Origin: Vineibacter terrae
GTDB lineage: Bacteria > Pseudomonadota > Alphaproteobacteria > Reyranellales > Reyranellaceae
Length of the DNA stretch: 39,528 bases
Direction of reading: 5' to 3'
Assembly: GCF_008039615.1 (NCBI RefSeq)
Contig: NZ_VDUZ01000071.1
Coordinates: 1-39,528, forward strand
Positions 28,574 to 35,595 of the stretch are shown piece after piece. The stretch's first letter is position 1; each line of letters begins with the position of its first letter. The notes below the pieces were generated by a model. That model did not search any database, was not told the DNA's origin, and saw nothing but the letters and a program-made list of their open reading frames with translations. The position numbers and the translations under genes are program-made.

Positions 28574-29317
28574 ATGCCGATCGCGTTCTGCACCGACGAC
28601 GAGCTTGCCTACAGGCGCAGCCGGACACGCTTCGAGCCCGGCGCCGGCATGCCGCTCGACGATGCCTATCGCCTGGCGCACCTGCCGCTGGTCGCGCCAG
28701 CACATCCGCGTGTCATCGCCGCCAGGGACGGCACCTCCTATGCCATGGGCCGCCATCCGCGCGCCTACTCCCTGGTGCTGCCTGTCGCCGCCGATGCGCT
28801 CGAGGCGTCGCCCGCCTACCAGGCGCTCGATGCGGCGCTGCGGGCGGCACCCTTCGCCCACAAGGTGGCCTGGCACATCCTGGACCGGCGGCGCGATCGG
28901 CTGCATGCGACCGTGTGCGGCGCGCTCGGGCTGGAGCAGCCCCCTGTCCTGGACGCGGTGCTGGCGGCGCTGGCCCGCGTCGGGCCGATCGCCGTGCAGG
29001 CGCGCGGGCTGTTCTCCGGCAATGTCAACCGCGGGCGGCTTTACCTGCGCCTCTATCCCGAGCGGCGGCAGGGCACGAACATGTTCCATGCCGTGCAGCG
29101 CGCGCTCGGCCGGCCGGCCACGGATCTTTATGTGGTCGGCATCTGGAACCTGACCGACGACCTTGATGCCCATGAGGCGGCGGCCCTGGGCGCGCTGATC
29201 GAGCGCTGGTGGGCGCGTGTGCTCCTGCGCATCGAGGCCACCGAGCTGTGGCTGCTGGGCGCGCATGACGACCTCGTGCTCGATGCCGCGGTCAGCGCGC
29301 GCGTGCCGCTGGTCTGA
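28574..29317 (+). CDS. Uncharacterised protein, possibly 2H phosphoesterase-like
   Basis: I do not recognise this 247-residue protein with confidence. No signal peptide or membrane segment is visible. It has one H-A-T motif (111-113, in DRLHATVCG) preceded by a hydrophobic strand pattern, as in 2H phosphoesterases (LigT/2'-5' RNA ligase fold), but a clear second HxT/S is absent; the later conserved-looking strings are NVNRGRLYLRLYPE, LYVVGIWNLTDDLD and LLGAHDDLVLD. GGAGGA lies eight bases before the ATG. It follows the serine hydrolase closely and may share its transcript. Confidence 0.6.
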   Translation: MPIAFCTDDELAYRRSRTRFEPGAGMPLDDAYRLAHLPLVAPAHPRVIAARDGTSYAMGRHPRAYSLVLPVAADALEASPAYQALDAALRAAPFAHKVAWHILDRRRDRLHATVCGALGLEQPPVLDAVLAALARVGPIAVQARGLFSGNVNRGRLYLRLYPERRQGTNMFHAVQRALGRPATDLYVVGIWNLTDDLDAHEAAALGALIERWWARVLLRIEATELWLLGAHDDLVLDAAVSARVPLV

Positions 29318-29352: not shown

Positions 29353-30021
29353 TCAGTCCTTGGGGTGGGCGTAGAGCGCCAGGACGGCCGCCGTCGCGGC
29401 GTCGGCGCGGCGCGCGATCTCGCGGGGCGAGGGCGGCGTGCTCACACCCATGATCAGGCGCAGGATCAGATCGCCGATCAGGATGGCGAAGAACCGCGCC
29501 GCGATCGTGGCGGGCTCGCCGCCGCCGACCAGCCCGGCGTCGCGGGCCTGGGTCAGGAAGCCGACCAGGGCGGCGTGATTGGCACCGCGGCCGTTGTCGT
29601 CCAGCGTGCGCGCCAGCTCTGGCGAGCGCTCGGCCTCGAGGATGGCGAGCCGGTGCATTGCCACCACCGAGGGGGCGCAGATCTCCTTCAGCACCGTGGC
29701 GCCGAACTGGGTCAGCGTCGCGGCCAGGGCGTCGCGGTCGGCGACGTCGGGCGGCGCCAGCTTCTGGCGCATGCGCGCCGAGCGCGCGGCGAACATGGCG
29801 GCGAGGATGCCCTGCTTGCTGCCGAACAGGGCGTAGAGCTCGCGCTTCGACACCTTGGCGCGGGCGGCGATCTCGCGCGTGCTGGCCGCGACGTAGCCGC
29901 GTTCCATCAGCACGGCAGCCGTCGCCTCCATGATGCGGCCGCGCCGGCCGTCGCCCGTATCCGCATCGGCGGCTGTATCGCCGGGGGGCGGCTTGCCGGT
30001 GCTGCGTGTGTGGCTCTTCAC
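29353..30021 (-). CDS. TetR-family regulator, likely repressor of the divergent Rieske gene
   Basis: From a GTG at 30021 (GGGAGA about six bases upstream) the protein has 222 residues. After a polar N-terminus comes the TetR helix-turn-helix RGRIMEATAAVLMERGYVAASTREIAARAKVSKRELYALFGSKQGIL, then a C-terminal domain with MHRLAILEAERSPELARTL and FFAILIGDLILRLIMGV. An upstream ATG would run through the operator region and is less likely. It diverges from the Rieske oxygenase, and the 161-base gap holds a tight array of palindromes, so it probably represses both genes. Confidence 0.88.
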   Translation of the reverse strand: MKSHTRSTGKPPPGDTAADADTGDGRRGRIMEATAAVLMERGYVAASTREIAARAKVSKRELYALFGSKQGILAAMFAARSARMRQKLAPPDVADRDALAATLTQFGATVLKEICAPSVVAMHRLAILEAERSPELARTLDDNGRGANHAALVGFLTQARDAGLVGGGEPATIAARFFAILIGDLILRLIMGVSTPPSPREIARRADAATAAVLALYAHPKD

Positions 30022-30078: not shown

Positions 30079-30107
30079 TTGCCTGGTACCGATCGGTACC
30101 ATACAGT
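30079..30107 (+). promoter_or_regulatory. Candidate promoter of the Rieske oxygenase gene
   Basis: TTGCCT (30079-30084), a 17-base spacer and TACAGT (30102-30107) make a moderate sigma-70 promoter. The spacer is filled exactly by the first operator palindrome, so a bound repressor would cover both promoter boxes. In the opposite direction TTGGTA, 16 bases and TATGGT give a candidate for the tetR gene. Confidence 0.45.
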
Positions 30108-30133
30108 CGTACCGTTTGGTACCAAACGGTACC
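30085..30133. promoter_or_regulatory. Operator array of GGTACC-N4-GGTACC dyads
   Basis: GGTACC-GATC-GGTACC (30085-30100) is a perfect palindrome extending to 18 bases (30084-30101). GTACCGTTTGGTACCAAACGGTAC (30109-30132) is a perfect 24-base palindrome. Read as half-sites, GGTACC-N4-GGTACC recurs at 30085-30100 and 30118-30133, and GTACC-N4-GGTACC at 30109-30123 overlaps the latter. The two full copies are 33 bases apart, about three helical turns. The array lies between the divergent tetR-type gene and the Rieske gene. Confidence 0.85.
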
Positions 30134-30182
30134 AGCGGGGCGGGCAGGCCGCACGGCGCCTCTGCCCGCAAGGGAGCGAGAC

Positions 30183-31133
30183 ATGGACGGCATCATCGCA
30201 TCGCCGCATCGCGGCGACGATCTTCTGCACGGGCCCGGCTATCCCCAGACATGGTTTCCCGTCTGCCTGGCGCGGGACGTCGCAGCCGACACCCTGGCCG
30301 GCATCGACATCCTGGGGACCCGCGTCATCGTCTATCGCGACGGCGGCGGCCGCGCCGTGGTCCAGAGCGCCTGGTGCCCGCATCTGGGGGCGGATCTCTC
30401 GCAAGGCCAGCGGATCGAGGGCCATGTCCGCTGTCCCTTCCACCACTGGCGCTTCGATGCCGCCGGGGCCTGCGCGCACATCCCGACCGGCGACAAGATC
30501 CCGCCGGGCGCGCGGATCTTCACCTTCCCCGCGGCCGAGGCCTGGGGCCTGATCTGGGCCTTCAATGGCGCGACGCCGCTGTTCGACGTGCCGCGCATTC
30601 CCGGCGCCACGGCGGCCAGCCTCGCGGTCGAGGCGACCCTGCGCGGCGTGCGCCGCGCGACGTTCGCGCTGGCGACCAGCAACGGCGTCGACTTCCAGCA
30701 CCTGCGCACCGTGCACGGCCTGCCGACCGTCGCGCCCGATGCGATCAGCGTGCGCGCCTACGACATCGAATACGAGATCGATACGGCGAGCTACCGCCAC
30801 CACGGCCTGATCACCGGCACCAACACCTTCGCCCAGCATCTGCGGGTGGGCGGGCGCGACATGTTCATGCTGTTCACCGGCGCCCCGATCGACCGCGACC
30901 GGATCCGATCGTTCTTCGTCGTCGGCGTGCCGCCGGCGGATCAGGACGACGCTGACCAGCGCGCGGCCCTGCAGGCCTTGCGCGGCATGGCCGAACGGCT
31001 GATCGGCGAGGACGAGCCGATCTTCGAGAGCATGCGCTTCCGCCGCGGCGTCCTGGTCGCCAGCGACCGCTACCTGGCCCGCTTCTTCAAGTATGTCGCG
31101 GCGTTCCCGCGCGCCGAGCCGCCGGACGCCTGA
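30183..31133 (+). CDS. Rieske [2Fe-2S] non-heme iron oxygenase, alpha-subunit type
   Basis: The 316-residue protein has a Rieske domain with C65-x-H67 and C84-x2-H87 (CPHLG...CPFHH) and a catalytic domain whose N167-x2-D170-x2-H173-x4-H178 is the canonical mononuclear iron site with the bridging Asp. Such enzymes hydroxylate, demethylate or dihydroxylate aromatic or terpenoid substrates with electrons from a reductase, which is not encoded nearby. At 316 residues it is shorter than most ring-hydroxylating alpha subunits, closer to O-demethylase types. The ATG at 30183 has AAGGGAG upstream. The divergent TetR regulator likely senses its substrate. Confidence 0.92.
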   Translation: MDGIIASPHRGDDLLHGPGYPQTWFPVCLARDVAADTLAGIDILGTRVIVYRDGGGRAVVQSAWCPHLGADLSQGQRIEGHVRCPFHHWRFDAAGACAHIPTGDKIPPGARIFTFPAAEAWGLIWAFNGATPLFDVPRIPGATAASLAVEATLRGVRRATFALATSNGVDFQHLRTVHGLPTVAPDAISVRAYDIEYEIDTASYRHHGLITGTNTFAQHLRVGGRDMFMLFTGAPIDRDRIRSFFVVGVPPADQDDADQRAALQALRGMAERLIGEDEPIFESMRFRRGVLVASDRYLARFFKYVAAFPRAEPPDA

Positions 31134-31151: not shown

Positions 31152-31778
31152 TCAGACGAGCTCCTTCATGCCGGCAGGTGTTTCGATCTGCGCGCGATAG
31201 CGGAGGCTGCTGCCGGGCACGACGGCCGGTGCCCGCTCGATGCCGAGGTCGCGATAGAGCGCTGCGATGGCGGCAGGGTCAGGGTGCTCGAGGGTGAACG
31301 ATCGCAGCCGCGCGCCCAGGTCCGCGATCGTGGCCATCGAGCGCGGCTTGCCGCGCCGGTCGATGACGGATGGCGCCGCGCCGCCCAGGGGCAGCGCGCC
31401 GTCATCGGGGATGGCGAACTCGAACGACGGCAGGGAGACCTTCCTGCCGAAGATGTCCTGCCTTCCGGCAAGGACGGCGTCGATGACATCGGTTCGCGCG
31501 ACCCAGCCGCGCAGGCGGCGCCCCGCATCCCAGTCGGCCTTGACGGCCTTCTGGTCGTCGAGGCCAAACCAGCGCGCGCGATCCGGCGGCGTGCCCTCGG
31601 GATCCAGGGCCACGATCTCCATGTAGACCGAGGCGCCGAGCTGGAGCAGGTGATTATGGGTGCCCATGTAGTCGTGGCGCTGTCCGAACGGGACATCGAT
31701 ATCAAGGCACGATCGAACGTGGGCGACCCCTTCGATCAAGGTCGGCGCGATGACGCTGAGGTGGTCGAGCTTGAGCAT
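31152..31778 (-). CDS. VOC-superfamily protein (glyoxalase-like domain)
   Basis: The 208-residue protein begins LKLDHLSVIAPTLIEGVAHVRSCLDI and continues DYMGTHNHLLQLGASVYMEIVALDPEG, the first beta-alpha-beta-beta-beta unit of a glyoxalase-like fold (PF13468 type) with candidate metal residues H6, H41 and E54. A second, weaker unit ends with the LRYRAQIETPAG strand. Function and substrate are unknown. It converges on the Rieske gene, with stops 18 bases apart; a role in the same catabolic route is possible. Confidence 0.8.
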   Translation of the reverse strand: MLKLDHLSVIAPTLIEGVAHVRSCLDIDVPFGQRHDYMGTHNHLLQLGASVYMEIVALDPEGTPPDRARWFGLDDQKAVKADWDAGRRLRGWVARTDVIDAVLAGRQDIFGRKVSLPSFEFAIPDDGALPLGGAAPSVIDRRGKPRSMATIADLGARLRSFTLEHPDPAAIAALYRDLGIERAPAVVPGSSLRYRAQIETPAGMKELV

Positions 31779-33773: not shown

Positions 33774-34649
33774 CTACCGGAATTGCGCCCTCAGCCACTG
33801 CGCCACGTCGCGCACGTCCTGCATGCCGCGCTGCGCGCGCGGCACCACGAGGTAGTAGCCGGCGCCGACATCGGCCGTCATGGCGGGGAAGCGCACCAGG
33901 CGGCTGCCGGCGGCGTCCTGGCCGCCGGCGCCGGCCAGGGTGATGCCGGTCCCGGCCGCGGCGGCGCGCAGCGCGACGTCGGTATTGTCGAACGCCAGCG
34001 TCTGTAGCCCGGCCAGCGGCCCGAGCCGGTTGGCGGCGAGCCACAGCGACCAGGCCCGTTCCGTGCCGCTCACCAGCAGGATGCGCGTGGCCCGCAGGTC
34101 GGCGCGCGTCAGCCGCTCCCGGCCGCGATACGCCATGCCGGCGACCGCCTGCATGGGCACGCCGACCAGCCGCGTGGCGGTGCCGTCGCGCCAATCGCCG
34201 AAGCCGAAGCGGACGGCGATCTCGCCGGCGGCCAGCGGCTCGATGCGCGGCGACGTCTCGACCGCGAACGCGATGGCGGCAAAGCGCTGGCGCAGGCGCG
34301 GCATGTGCCGCGCCAGCCAACCCGACGCGAATGAGTGCGGCGCCTTGATCACGATGCGCTTGTGGGTGGCGCTCTGGTCGGCGATGTGGCGCGCGATGGC
34401 GCCGAAGGCGCGCGTGGCGATCCGGTGCAGCGCCCGGCCGCGCGGCGTCAGGGAGATCCCCAGCGGCGTGCGCACGAGCAGGGCCGTGTCCATGTCGTGC
34501 TCGAGCGCGGCGATGCGCCGGCTGACCGCCGACGGCGTCAGGTGGAGCTGGACGGCAGCCGCGCGGATGCTGCCGGCATTGCCGACGCAGACGAAGGCTT
34601 CGAGCCCGCGCAGGTTGGGCAGCCGCGTGCTGATCGCTTTTCCCGTCAT
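33774..34649 (-). CDS. LysR-family transcriptional regulator
   Basis: The 291-residue protein has the LysR helix-turn-helix near 9-68: LPNLRGLEAFVCVGNAGSIRAAAVQLHLTPSAVSRRIAALEHDMDTALLVRTPLGISLTPRGR, followed by a periplasmic-binding-like effector domain with GIAVRFGFGDWRDG- and RAAAAGTGITLAG-type strings, nearest the GcvA group. The start at 34649 (MTGKAIS) has GAGG about nine bases upstream. It diverges from the amidohydrolase gene over 136 bases, which is the usual layout of a LysR regulator and its target. Confidence 0.92.
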   Translation of the reverse strand: MTGKAISTRLPNLRGLEAFVCVGNAGSIRAAAVQLHLTPSAVSRRIAALEHDMDTALLVRTPLGISLTPRGRALHRIATRAFGAIARHIADQSATHKRIVIKAPHSFASGWLARHMPRLRQRFAAIAFAVETSPRIEPLAAGEIAVRFGFGDWRDGTATRLVGVPMQAVAGMAYRGRERLTRADLRATRILLVSGTERAWSLWLAANRLGPLAGLQTLAFDNTDVALRAAAAGTGITLAGAGGQDAAGSRLVRFPAMTADVGAGYYLVVPRAQRGMQDVRDVAQWLRAQFR

Positions 34650-34785
34650 CGCGCCAACCTCGCTGTCCTGCGTCGGGGGTGATGCAATTTCCGCAACACT
34701 AGCGGAATTCTTTGCGGTACGCGATCCGGGGCGGCCGCTCGTAGAACCGCTGCCATCGCGTGTTCGACCGACCGGAGCGCCCGCC

Positions 34786-35595
34786 ATGATCATCGACGCC
34801 TGGATGCAGCAGACGACGGAGCGCTTCGCGCGCCACGAGATGCTGGCGACGCTGCGGCGCTGGACGCGCGAGGAGATGCGGCCGCAGATCACCGACGCGA
34901 TGACGATCGCGGCCATGGATGCGGGCGGCGTCCGGGTCGCTCTCGCCTCGGCGTGGTGCGGGCCGCAGGGCTGGCTGATCTCGCACGAGGAGGTGGCGGC
35001 GCTGGCGCGGGCGCATCCCGGGCGCGTCCTGGGCATCGCCAGCGCCGACCTCGACCGGCCGATGCCGGCGGTGCGCGAGCTGCGCCGGGCCGTGAAGCAG
35101 CTCGGCTTCCGCGGCCTGCGTGTCGTGCCCTGGCTGTGGAAGCTGCCGCCGAACGATCGCCGGTTCTATCCGCTCTACGCCGAGTGCGTCGAGCTCGGCA
35201 TCCCGTTCTGCACCCAGGTCGGCCACACCGGGCCGCTGCGGCCCTCGGAGACCGGCCGGCCGATCCCCTATCTCGACGAGGTGGCGCTCGACTTCCCCGA
35301 GCTGGTGATCGTGGGCGGGCATATCGGCTACCCGTGGACGCAGGAGATGATCGCGCTCGCCACCAAGTACCCGAACGTCCACATCGACACCTCGGCCTAT
35401 ACCGCGCGCCGCTATCCGCCCGAGCTGGTGCAGTACATGCGCGGCCATGGCCGCCGCAAGGTGATGTTCGGCAGCAACTACCCGATGATCGCGCCTGCCC
35501 GGGCGCTCGAAGGCCTCGATAGCCTCGGCCTCGACGACGAGGCCAGGGCGCTGTTCCTGGGCGGCAACGCCGCGCGCGTGTTCGGCGTCGGCTGA
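34786..35595 (+). CDS. Amidohydrolase family protein (PF04909, ACMSD/LigJ-like)
   Basis: The 269-residue protein is a TIM-barrel amidohydrolase-2 member: GFRGLRVVPWLWKLPPNDRRFYPLYAECVELGIPFCTQVGHTGP near 108-150, VIVGGHIGYPWTQEMIALATKYPNVHIDTSAY near 172-205 and KVMFGSNYPMIAPARAL near 225-241. These are the His and Asp blocks of decarboxylase/hydratase-type enzymes acting on carboxylic acids. The usual N-terminal HxH is replaced by IDAWMQ, so metal binding there is weakened. The family often acts in aromatic breakdown. The divergent LysR gene probably controls it. Confidence 0.87.
   Translation: MIIDAWMQQTTERFARHEMLATLRRWTREEMRPQITDAMTIAAMDAGGVRVALASAWCGPQGWLISHEEVAALARAHPGRVLGIASADLDRPMPAVRELRRAVKQLGFRGLRVVPWLWKLPPNDRRFYPLYAECVELGIPFCTQVGHTGPLRPSETGRPIPYLDEVALDFPELVIVGGHIGYPWTQEMIALATKYPNVHIDTSAYTARRYPPELVQYMRGHGRRKVMFGSNYPMIAPARALEGLDSLGLDDEARALFLGGNAARVFGVG

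Follow-up and report, generated by a model that had tools for sequence, protein, structure and literature searches.

Twin GGTACC-N4-GGTACC palindromes as the predicted operator region of an AefR-like TetR regulator in Vineibacter terrae and its relatives

The intergenic region between a TetR-family regulator gene and a divergent Rieske oxygenase gene of Vineibacter terrae contains a cluster of GGTACC palindromes, and the question it raises is whether these constitute the operator of the adjacent regulator. The region lies in contig NZ_VDUZ01000071.1, positions 1 to 39,528 of which were analyzed (hereafter the window). Reading of the sequence confirmed the lengths and coordinates of two perfect palindromes described in an earlier note, one of 18 bases at 30084-30101 (TGGTACCGATCGGTACCA) and one of 24 bases at 30109-30132 (GTACCGTTTGGTACCAAACGGTAC); the half-site that the two were said to share does not exist, as 7 bases separate them. 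Exact GGTACC-N4-GGTACC dyads occur at 30085-30100 (GGTACCgatcGGTACC) and 30118-30133 (GGTACCaaacGGTACC), and a middle dyad at 30108-30123 (CGTACCgtttGGTACC) has one mismatch, its outer half being CGTACC. Hence the count of three N4 dyads stands, but only the middle and right ones overlap, through the GGTACC at 30118, and the middle one is imperfect. We term the first palindrome (30084-30101) and the segment at 30117-30134 (TGGTACCAAACGGTACCA) the predicted operators O1 and O2. Their exact dyads are 33 bases apart from start to start, or about three helical turns, with an edge-to-edge gap of 17 bp. A candidate promoter directed towards the Rieske gene on the plus strand consists of a -35 element TTGCCT (30079-30084), which deviates from the consensus, a 17-base spacer (30085-30101) and a -10 element TACAGT (30102-30107). 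The first dyad thus sits in the spacer, as had been described, and O2 lies just downstream of the expected start point.

The regulator gene occupies 29353-30021 of the minus strand, including the stop codon, and encodes a protein of 222 residues; the GTG start at 30021 was chosen because it is preceded by GGGAG and because the resulting N-terminus aligns with those of relatives. The protein contains a TetR_N helix-turn-helix domain (PF00440, E-value 3.4e-13, 49.6 bits against a cut-off of 24) and an AefR-like C-terminal domain (PF14246, TetR_C_7, 1.6e-19, 70.4 bits against a cut-off of 22). Its AlphaFold2 model displays the all-helical TetR fold, with ten helices and a mean pLDDT of 91.4. A structure search of the PDB gave 186 matches with E <= 0.001, the 50 best of which were all TetR-type or named transcriptional regulators; MexL had the nearest fold, followed by a regulator from Mesorhizobium loti, FrrA and other TetR regulators, NalC among them, all with less than 30% identity. 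The divergent gene (30183-31133, plus strand) codes for a protein of 316 residues with a Rieske domain (Pfam, 3.5e-21). In an alignment of 10 Rieske sequences, from which L064 was left out, the motifs C65-x-H67, C84-x2-H87 and D170-x2-H173-x4-H178 are invariant, and we take these to be the cluster and iron ligands of a Rieske non-haem iron oxygenase. As regards the surroundings, an open frame of 247 codons (28574-29317, plus strand; no Pfam match at E <= 0.001) is convergent with tetR, and a gene for a Glyoxalase_3 domain protein (31152-31778, minus strand; Pfam 2.4e-25) is convergent with the Rieske gene. Elsewhere in the window, a LysR regulator gene (33774-34688, minus strand) and a divergent amidohydrolase gene (34855-35595, plus strand) likely form another regulator-target unit.

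If the dyads serve the regulator, they would be expected beside its orthologs. Searches of 61 genomes with either protein found the TetR and Rieske genes paired in five other genomes of the family (G018, G019, G020, G031 and G035), and two further genomes (G051 and G013) contain TetR relatives at 44-45% identity without a close Rieske match. In all seven, two dyads are present in the same place: both are exact in G018 and G051, each has one mismatch in G019, and the second has 1-2 mismatches in G031, G035, G020 and G013. In G018 and G019 a methyltransferase gene intervenes between the promoter and the Rieske gene. The earlier expectation that the dyads recur upstream of orthologous TetR-Rieske pairs is accordingly borne out in 5/5 pairs, other than the window's own, with strong Rieske matches.

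A wider set of 80 loci was chosen by protein alone: of 136 loci in named genomes recruited with the TetR alignment A1, the 80 best were kept. The records that hold this TetR clade are named as Alpha-, Beta- and Gammaproteobacteria and Acidobacteria, and judging by genus presumably include Actinobacteria. Within the 400 nt upstream of TetR, 53 loci have an exact dyad, 25 have one with a single mismatch, one (L145) has two mismatches and one (L096) has no dyad within three; in L108, which has an exact dyad, only about 90 nt of upstream sequence is available. Dyads with at most one mismatch thus occur in 78/80 upstream regions, as against 2/1224 control stretches from the same loci. In 71 loci the dyad could be matched with a second one close by, and 69 of these pairs have no more than 3 mismatches in all; the start-to-start spacing is exactly 32 in 33 pairs, 30-34 in 64, 22-25 in 5 and 27 in 2. 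Among the nine loci without a close pair, three (L114, L128 and L129) have dyads 92-102 bp apart, five have a single dyad (including L108, cut by the contig end), and L096 has none. The same three loci and L118, all named Acidobacteria, have an exact dyad 92-102 bp from another, or about nine helical turns, upstream of TetR, and L118 has a weak close dyad besides the distant one.

The pairs yield the dyad consensus tGGTACCrnnyGGTACCa, in which conservation is inflated because pairs were picked to minimize mismatches, with up to 3 allowed in each dyad. This does not affect columns outside the selection, where we observed conservation of TTGAC before O1 (44-55 of 71 per base) and of ATA directly after it (A 54, T 62 and A 62 of 71). 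The -35 element of the window fits the former with a one-base shift. These flanking elements indicate that O1 fills the spacer of a promoter directed towards the divergent gene, and no promoter elements of this kind were found around O2 in the 71 relatives. Placement of the first dyad in the spacer and of the second just after the expected start, as well as a spacing close to three helical turns, are hence the common pattern of the relatives and not peculiarities of the window, in keeping with what had been proposed from the window.

The position of the tetR start bears on autoregulation. In 48/71 loci the distance from O1 to the first possible TetR start codon is 12-25 nt, and in 63/71 the latest possible one lies within 36 nt of O1, a bound that assumes a start at least 3 codons before residue 27. 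In such loci the start is too close to O1 for a separate promoter, and the tetR promoter is expected to overlap the dyads. The window differs in that its tetR start lies 63 nt from O1, which leaves room for a separate promoter and weakens the autoregulation argument there; a by-eye search of its intergenic sequence for a tetR promoter on the minus strand found no convincing -35/-10 pair.

The comparison with relatives thus supports the proposal that the dyads are the operator region of the TetR gene, and we consider it highly probable (roughly 0.9) that the twin palindromes provide two operators, on one face of the DNA, for the adjacent AefR-like regulator acting as an autoregulatory repressor. 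We infer that the protein would bind the dyads, repress the divergent promoter and limit its own expression. One TetR dimer would occupy each GGTACC-N4-GGTACC, the dimer at O1 covering the -35/-10 spacer of the divergent promoter (here that of the Rieske gene) and the dimer at O2 covering the first transcribed bases, just past the start point. With O1 inside the promoter and O2 immediately beyond the start, bound repressor would keep RNA polymerase off; where tetR starts close to O1, as in most relatives, the repressor may also restrict itself. Release would then come from a small molecule, probably one that the regulated enzymes consume or make. Given that about three helical turns place O1 and O2 on one face of the DNA, contact between the two dimers would be possible.

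Whether such contact is made is the point on which a variant of this reading, compatible with all else in it, turns: the dimers could bind independently, with the 32-bp spacing merely reflecting promoter geometry. We give this variant a little under an even chance. The promoter by itself would account for the positions of O1 and O2 separately, a spread of 30-34 bp amounts to more than 100 degrees of rotation, and the seven pairs at 22-25 or 27 bp, together with the three further loci at 92-102 bp, depart from the common distance altogether. Set against this are the 33/71 pairs at exactly 32 bp, the fact that five of the seven short pairs are about one helical turn away from the main class, and the best TetR tree, on which the short class (under 29) requires 6 changes. 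The change counts on this tree are rough, as support is weak for 39 of its 78 inner branches and the well-supported ones by themselves require fewer changes (no more than 3 for any family).

The reading of a two-operator region leaves the middle dyad of the window (CGTACCGTTTGGTACC), which has one half-site in common with O2, to be accounted for. The third, overlapping dyad of the earlier note proved not to be conserved: at the 10-bp positions (284 places), 0/71 relatives have an additional half-site matching in five of six bases. The palindrome extension is 9 in the window and at most 4 in 189 half-sites of relatives, and the arms of the 24-bp palindrome match even in the N4 spacers, unlike those of the 71 relatives. 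The middle dyad is thus peculiar to the window. It either offers a dimer a third register or is left over from a template switch, and the 24-bp palindrome may record such a (quasi-palindrome) mutation in this lineage. The dyad adds a 23-bp spacing beside the 33-bp one; as other lineages have a short class of 22-25 bp, a link between the two can be offered as a suggestion only.

The genes behind the twin operator are varied. First divergent genes were assigned by tblastn, with family names taken from Pfam scans of examples, and in 71/80 loci they belong to one of eight families: NmrA-like (28), Rieske (13), a small hydrophobic protein (7), MIase-like (7, with a match that scores below the Pfam cut-off), ABC ATPase (6), alpha/beta hydrolase (6), methyltransferase (3) and RidA-like (1, the name that we assume for a Ribonuc_L-PSP match). 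The families recur as second or third genes. The operons show a mix-and-match organization (L070, L071, L091, L103, L113-L115, L120 and others), with combinations such as methyltransferase-Rieske-small hydrophobic protein, NmrA-small hydrophobic protein, NmrA-hydrolase and MIase-like-small hydrophobic protein-ABC. On the best TetR tree the first divergent gene changes about 15 times, a count to be read with the same latitude as above, which indicates that the operator follows the regulator and not the target.

These observations could be extended to a bolder picture, of a portable cassette in which a TetR clade spread over several phyla keeps a near-fixed twin operator, with two dimers locked together on one face of the DNA and spacing altered in steps of about one turn, while the enzyme behind it is swapped within a small set (Rieske, NmrA, methyltransferase, small hydrophobic protein, ABC, hydrolase and MIase-like). 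The three half-sites of the window, 10 bp from one to the next, would then have caught a shift from the 33- to the 23-bp register, as seen in other lineages, in progress. We regard this as speculative and on balance improbable, at about one chance in four. If true, a cassette with such a small exchanged set would point to one shared inducer.

Genome-wide searches bear on a different explanation, namely that the dyads bind another protein, such as a global regulator, and that adjacency to TetR is a matter of coincidence or synteny. A relaxed twin pattern was found in 15 of 75 genomes of the window's family, once in each, and a close TetR gene (E below 1e-60) in 17, which include all 15; in each of these 15 the TetR match lies within about 75 bp of the twin site. 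The pattern is thus present in 15/17 family genomes with a close TetR as against 0/58 without (p 6e-14, a value that ignores relatedness), and in the two misses, G019 and G013, the site is present with mismatches. Three of the 58 pattern-free genomes hold distant TetR relatives (E 1e-28 to 1e-34), in loci L011, L187 and L188; in these and in L190, all with TetR proteins outside the clade (28-33% identity where known), no dyad was found within 2 mismatches. Among 98 genomes of the genus g37, a looser twin pattern occurs 18 times in 16 genomes, and is present in 16/18 with a close TetR (E below 1e-80) versus 0/80 without (p 2e-16, again ignoring relatedness). The two misses here comprise a contig that ends just after the first dyad and a mismatched second dyad. 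The genus is probably Bradyrhizobium, as it has sites identical to those of loci named so. Three of the 80 pattern-free g37 genomes hold weaker TetR relatives, and no twin pattern adjoins the weaker second copies (E 1e-37 to 1e-65) in G833, G837, G844 and G851. Given the lack of dyads beside the TetR proteins outside the clade and of the twin pattern beside these weaker copies, the twin site belongs to a limited clade.

An unrelated DNA-binding protein would be conceivable insofar as we infer TetR binding to the dyads and autoregulation from comparison of sequences. It would have to be missing its sites in every one of the genomes devoid of a close TetR (58/58 and 80/80), and yet retain them next to TetR as one target gene replaces another, and we therefore hold it to be very improbable. 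Two more divergent TetR copies bear further on the specificity of the site. In G465 (C250) a second copy adjoins variant dyads GGTACG-N4-CGTACC at L212 3607 and 3638, 31 bp apart, and in G838 a divergent copy has twin dyads of the GGTACG/CGTACC type 22 bp apart (G838:C1:5106306-5106343). The variant half-sites suggest that these are paralogs with a shifted operator specificity.

Of the 18 g37 twin sites, 17 adjoin a TetR match. The eighteenth, in G838 (G838:C1:6147783-6147831; L211 2984-3032), has no TetR gene of the clade beside it; it is preceded by TTGACA and followed by the gene of a small hydrophobic protein of about 169 residues with no Pfam match. The family of this protein has a match somewhere in 26/80 TetR loci, and it is this association that makes the site meaningful: the gene is likely to be a member of the regulon in trans.

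In its own genome the site is a singular one. The 8.76 Mb genome contains two exact dyads, both at the window site, compared with an expectation from base composition of 1.0 for the genome and 0.005 for the window. GGTACC is found 4 times in the window against 13.5 expected, with all four copies inside the site. At the level of up to 3 mismatches the whole window has 16 dyads against a shuffle mean of 9.5, with 4/100 shuffles as high, which is only mildly above chance. One-mismatch dyads occur at four places in the genome beyond the window's three, against 35 for the reversed pattern, a rough control since it is another sequence; no further regulon sites were detected in this genome beyond these four places. 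A search of the genome for the small hydrophobic protein family, run without a positive control, gave no match at E <= 0.001. Among 398 genomes of the phylum, the exact twin was found in the window's genome alone, which only shows that the strict form is rare. A strict promoter-plus-dyad pattern had 0 matches in 385 genomes of the class; this says little, as the window's genome and G051, both included, carry the operator in a slightly different form. The weakest explanation is that the site plays no part in regulation and is a mobile or structural repeat, such as an inverted-repeat element, a hairpin, a terminator or a cluster of KpnI sites. The 24-bp palindrome could form a hairpin, and the perfection of its arms points to a template switch in this lineage. 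We nevertheless dismiss this explanation almost entirely, since the site is the only such place in the genome and is set between the -35 and -10 elements with a narrow spacing range across phyla, whereas its N4 and spacer sequences vary.

A predicted two-operator region of this kind can be compared with known TetR systems. MexL of Pseudomonas aeruginosa is a TetR-family regulator of the MexJK efflux pump. Its structure (PDB 8wrf) is the closest solved fold to the window regulator (TM 0.81/0.89, rmsd 1.7 over 196 columns), with a sequence identity of 24%. Available portions of PMC6018408 and PMC9323910 deal with this protein. At that level of identity, and with a Rieske oxygenase as neighbor and no efflux operon, the window TetR is not a MexL ortholog. 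FrrA is a flavonoid-responsive regulator of Bradyrhizobium. With the TetR fold, it is the best PDB sequence match (2.7e-15) and among the closest folds (PDB 6g87, 6g8g and 6g8h); it differs in having 27-28% identity to the window regulator and in having been solved with naringenin or genistein. AefR (PDB 3cdl), the namesake of PF14246, has the C-terminal domain family in common with the window regulator, but shows 22-24% identity and a weaker structural match.

A parallel in operator architecture is MbdR of Azoarcus, which, according to the accessible text of PMC4424350, is a TetR repressor of 3-methylbenzoate catabolism that is released by a pathway intermediate, is autoregulated and has several operators at its own promoter, with 18-bp palindromes over the -35, the -10 and the start site. 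Its operator in that text is ATAC-N10-GTAT, in contrast to GGTACC-N4-GGTACC in the window. QacR likewise places two dimers on one promoter, as proposed for the window; these bind opposite sides of overlapping palindromes within 28 bp, as described in the accessible part of PMC6018408. O1 and O2, which lie clear of each other at the longer distance seen in most relatives, do not fit a QacR-type dimer of dimers; a QacR-like overlap exists between the middle dyad of the window and O2, but it has no counterpart in the relatives. Snowprint, as presented in the part of PMC10858194 available, predicts operators computationally from the promoter regions of regulators by a similar logic; it is a method, and the terms GGTACC, tandem, palindrom and AefR are absent from its main text (PMC10858194).

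The literature searched, which mostly excludes subscription journals, contained neither GGTACCNNNNGGTACC as a word, which does not imply its absence from print, nor an operator for this TetR clade. GGTACC appears in primers only in the accessible portions of PMC4424350 (where the operator is another one), PMC8305169 and PMC9430723, and a motif-like match in PMC4191427 is the site of another regulator. TetR repressors that regulate themselves through palindromic operators are a well-known kind, and a GGTACC-N4-GGTACC target of this clade was not found described in these sources.

The finding provides a concrete predicted DNA target for a TetR clade found across several bacterial groups. As the motif is short, strict and closely co-occurs with its regulator, the regulon can be read from sequence alone, and one likely member in trans was already found from the motif by itself. 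The regulator and its promoter could serve as a ready-made sensor part when an inducer has been identified, and the mixed but recurrent set of targets is a lead to that inducer.
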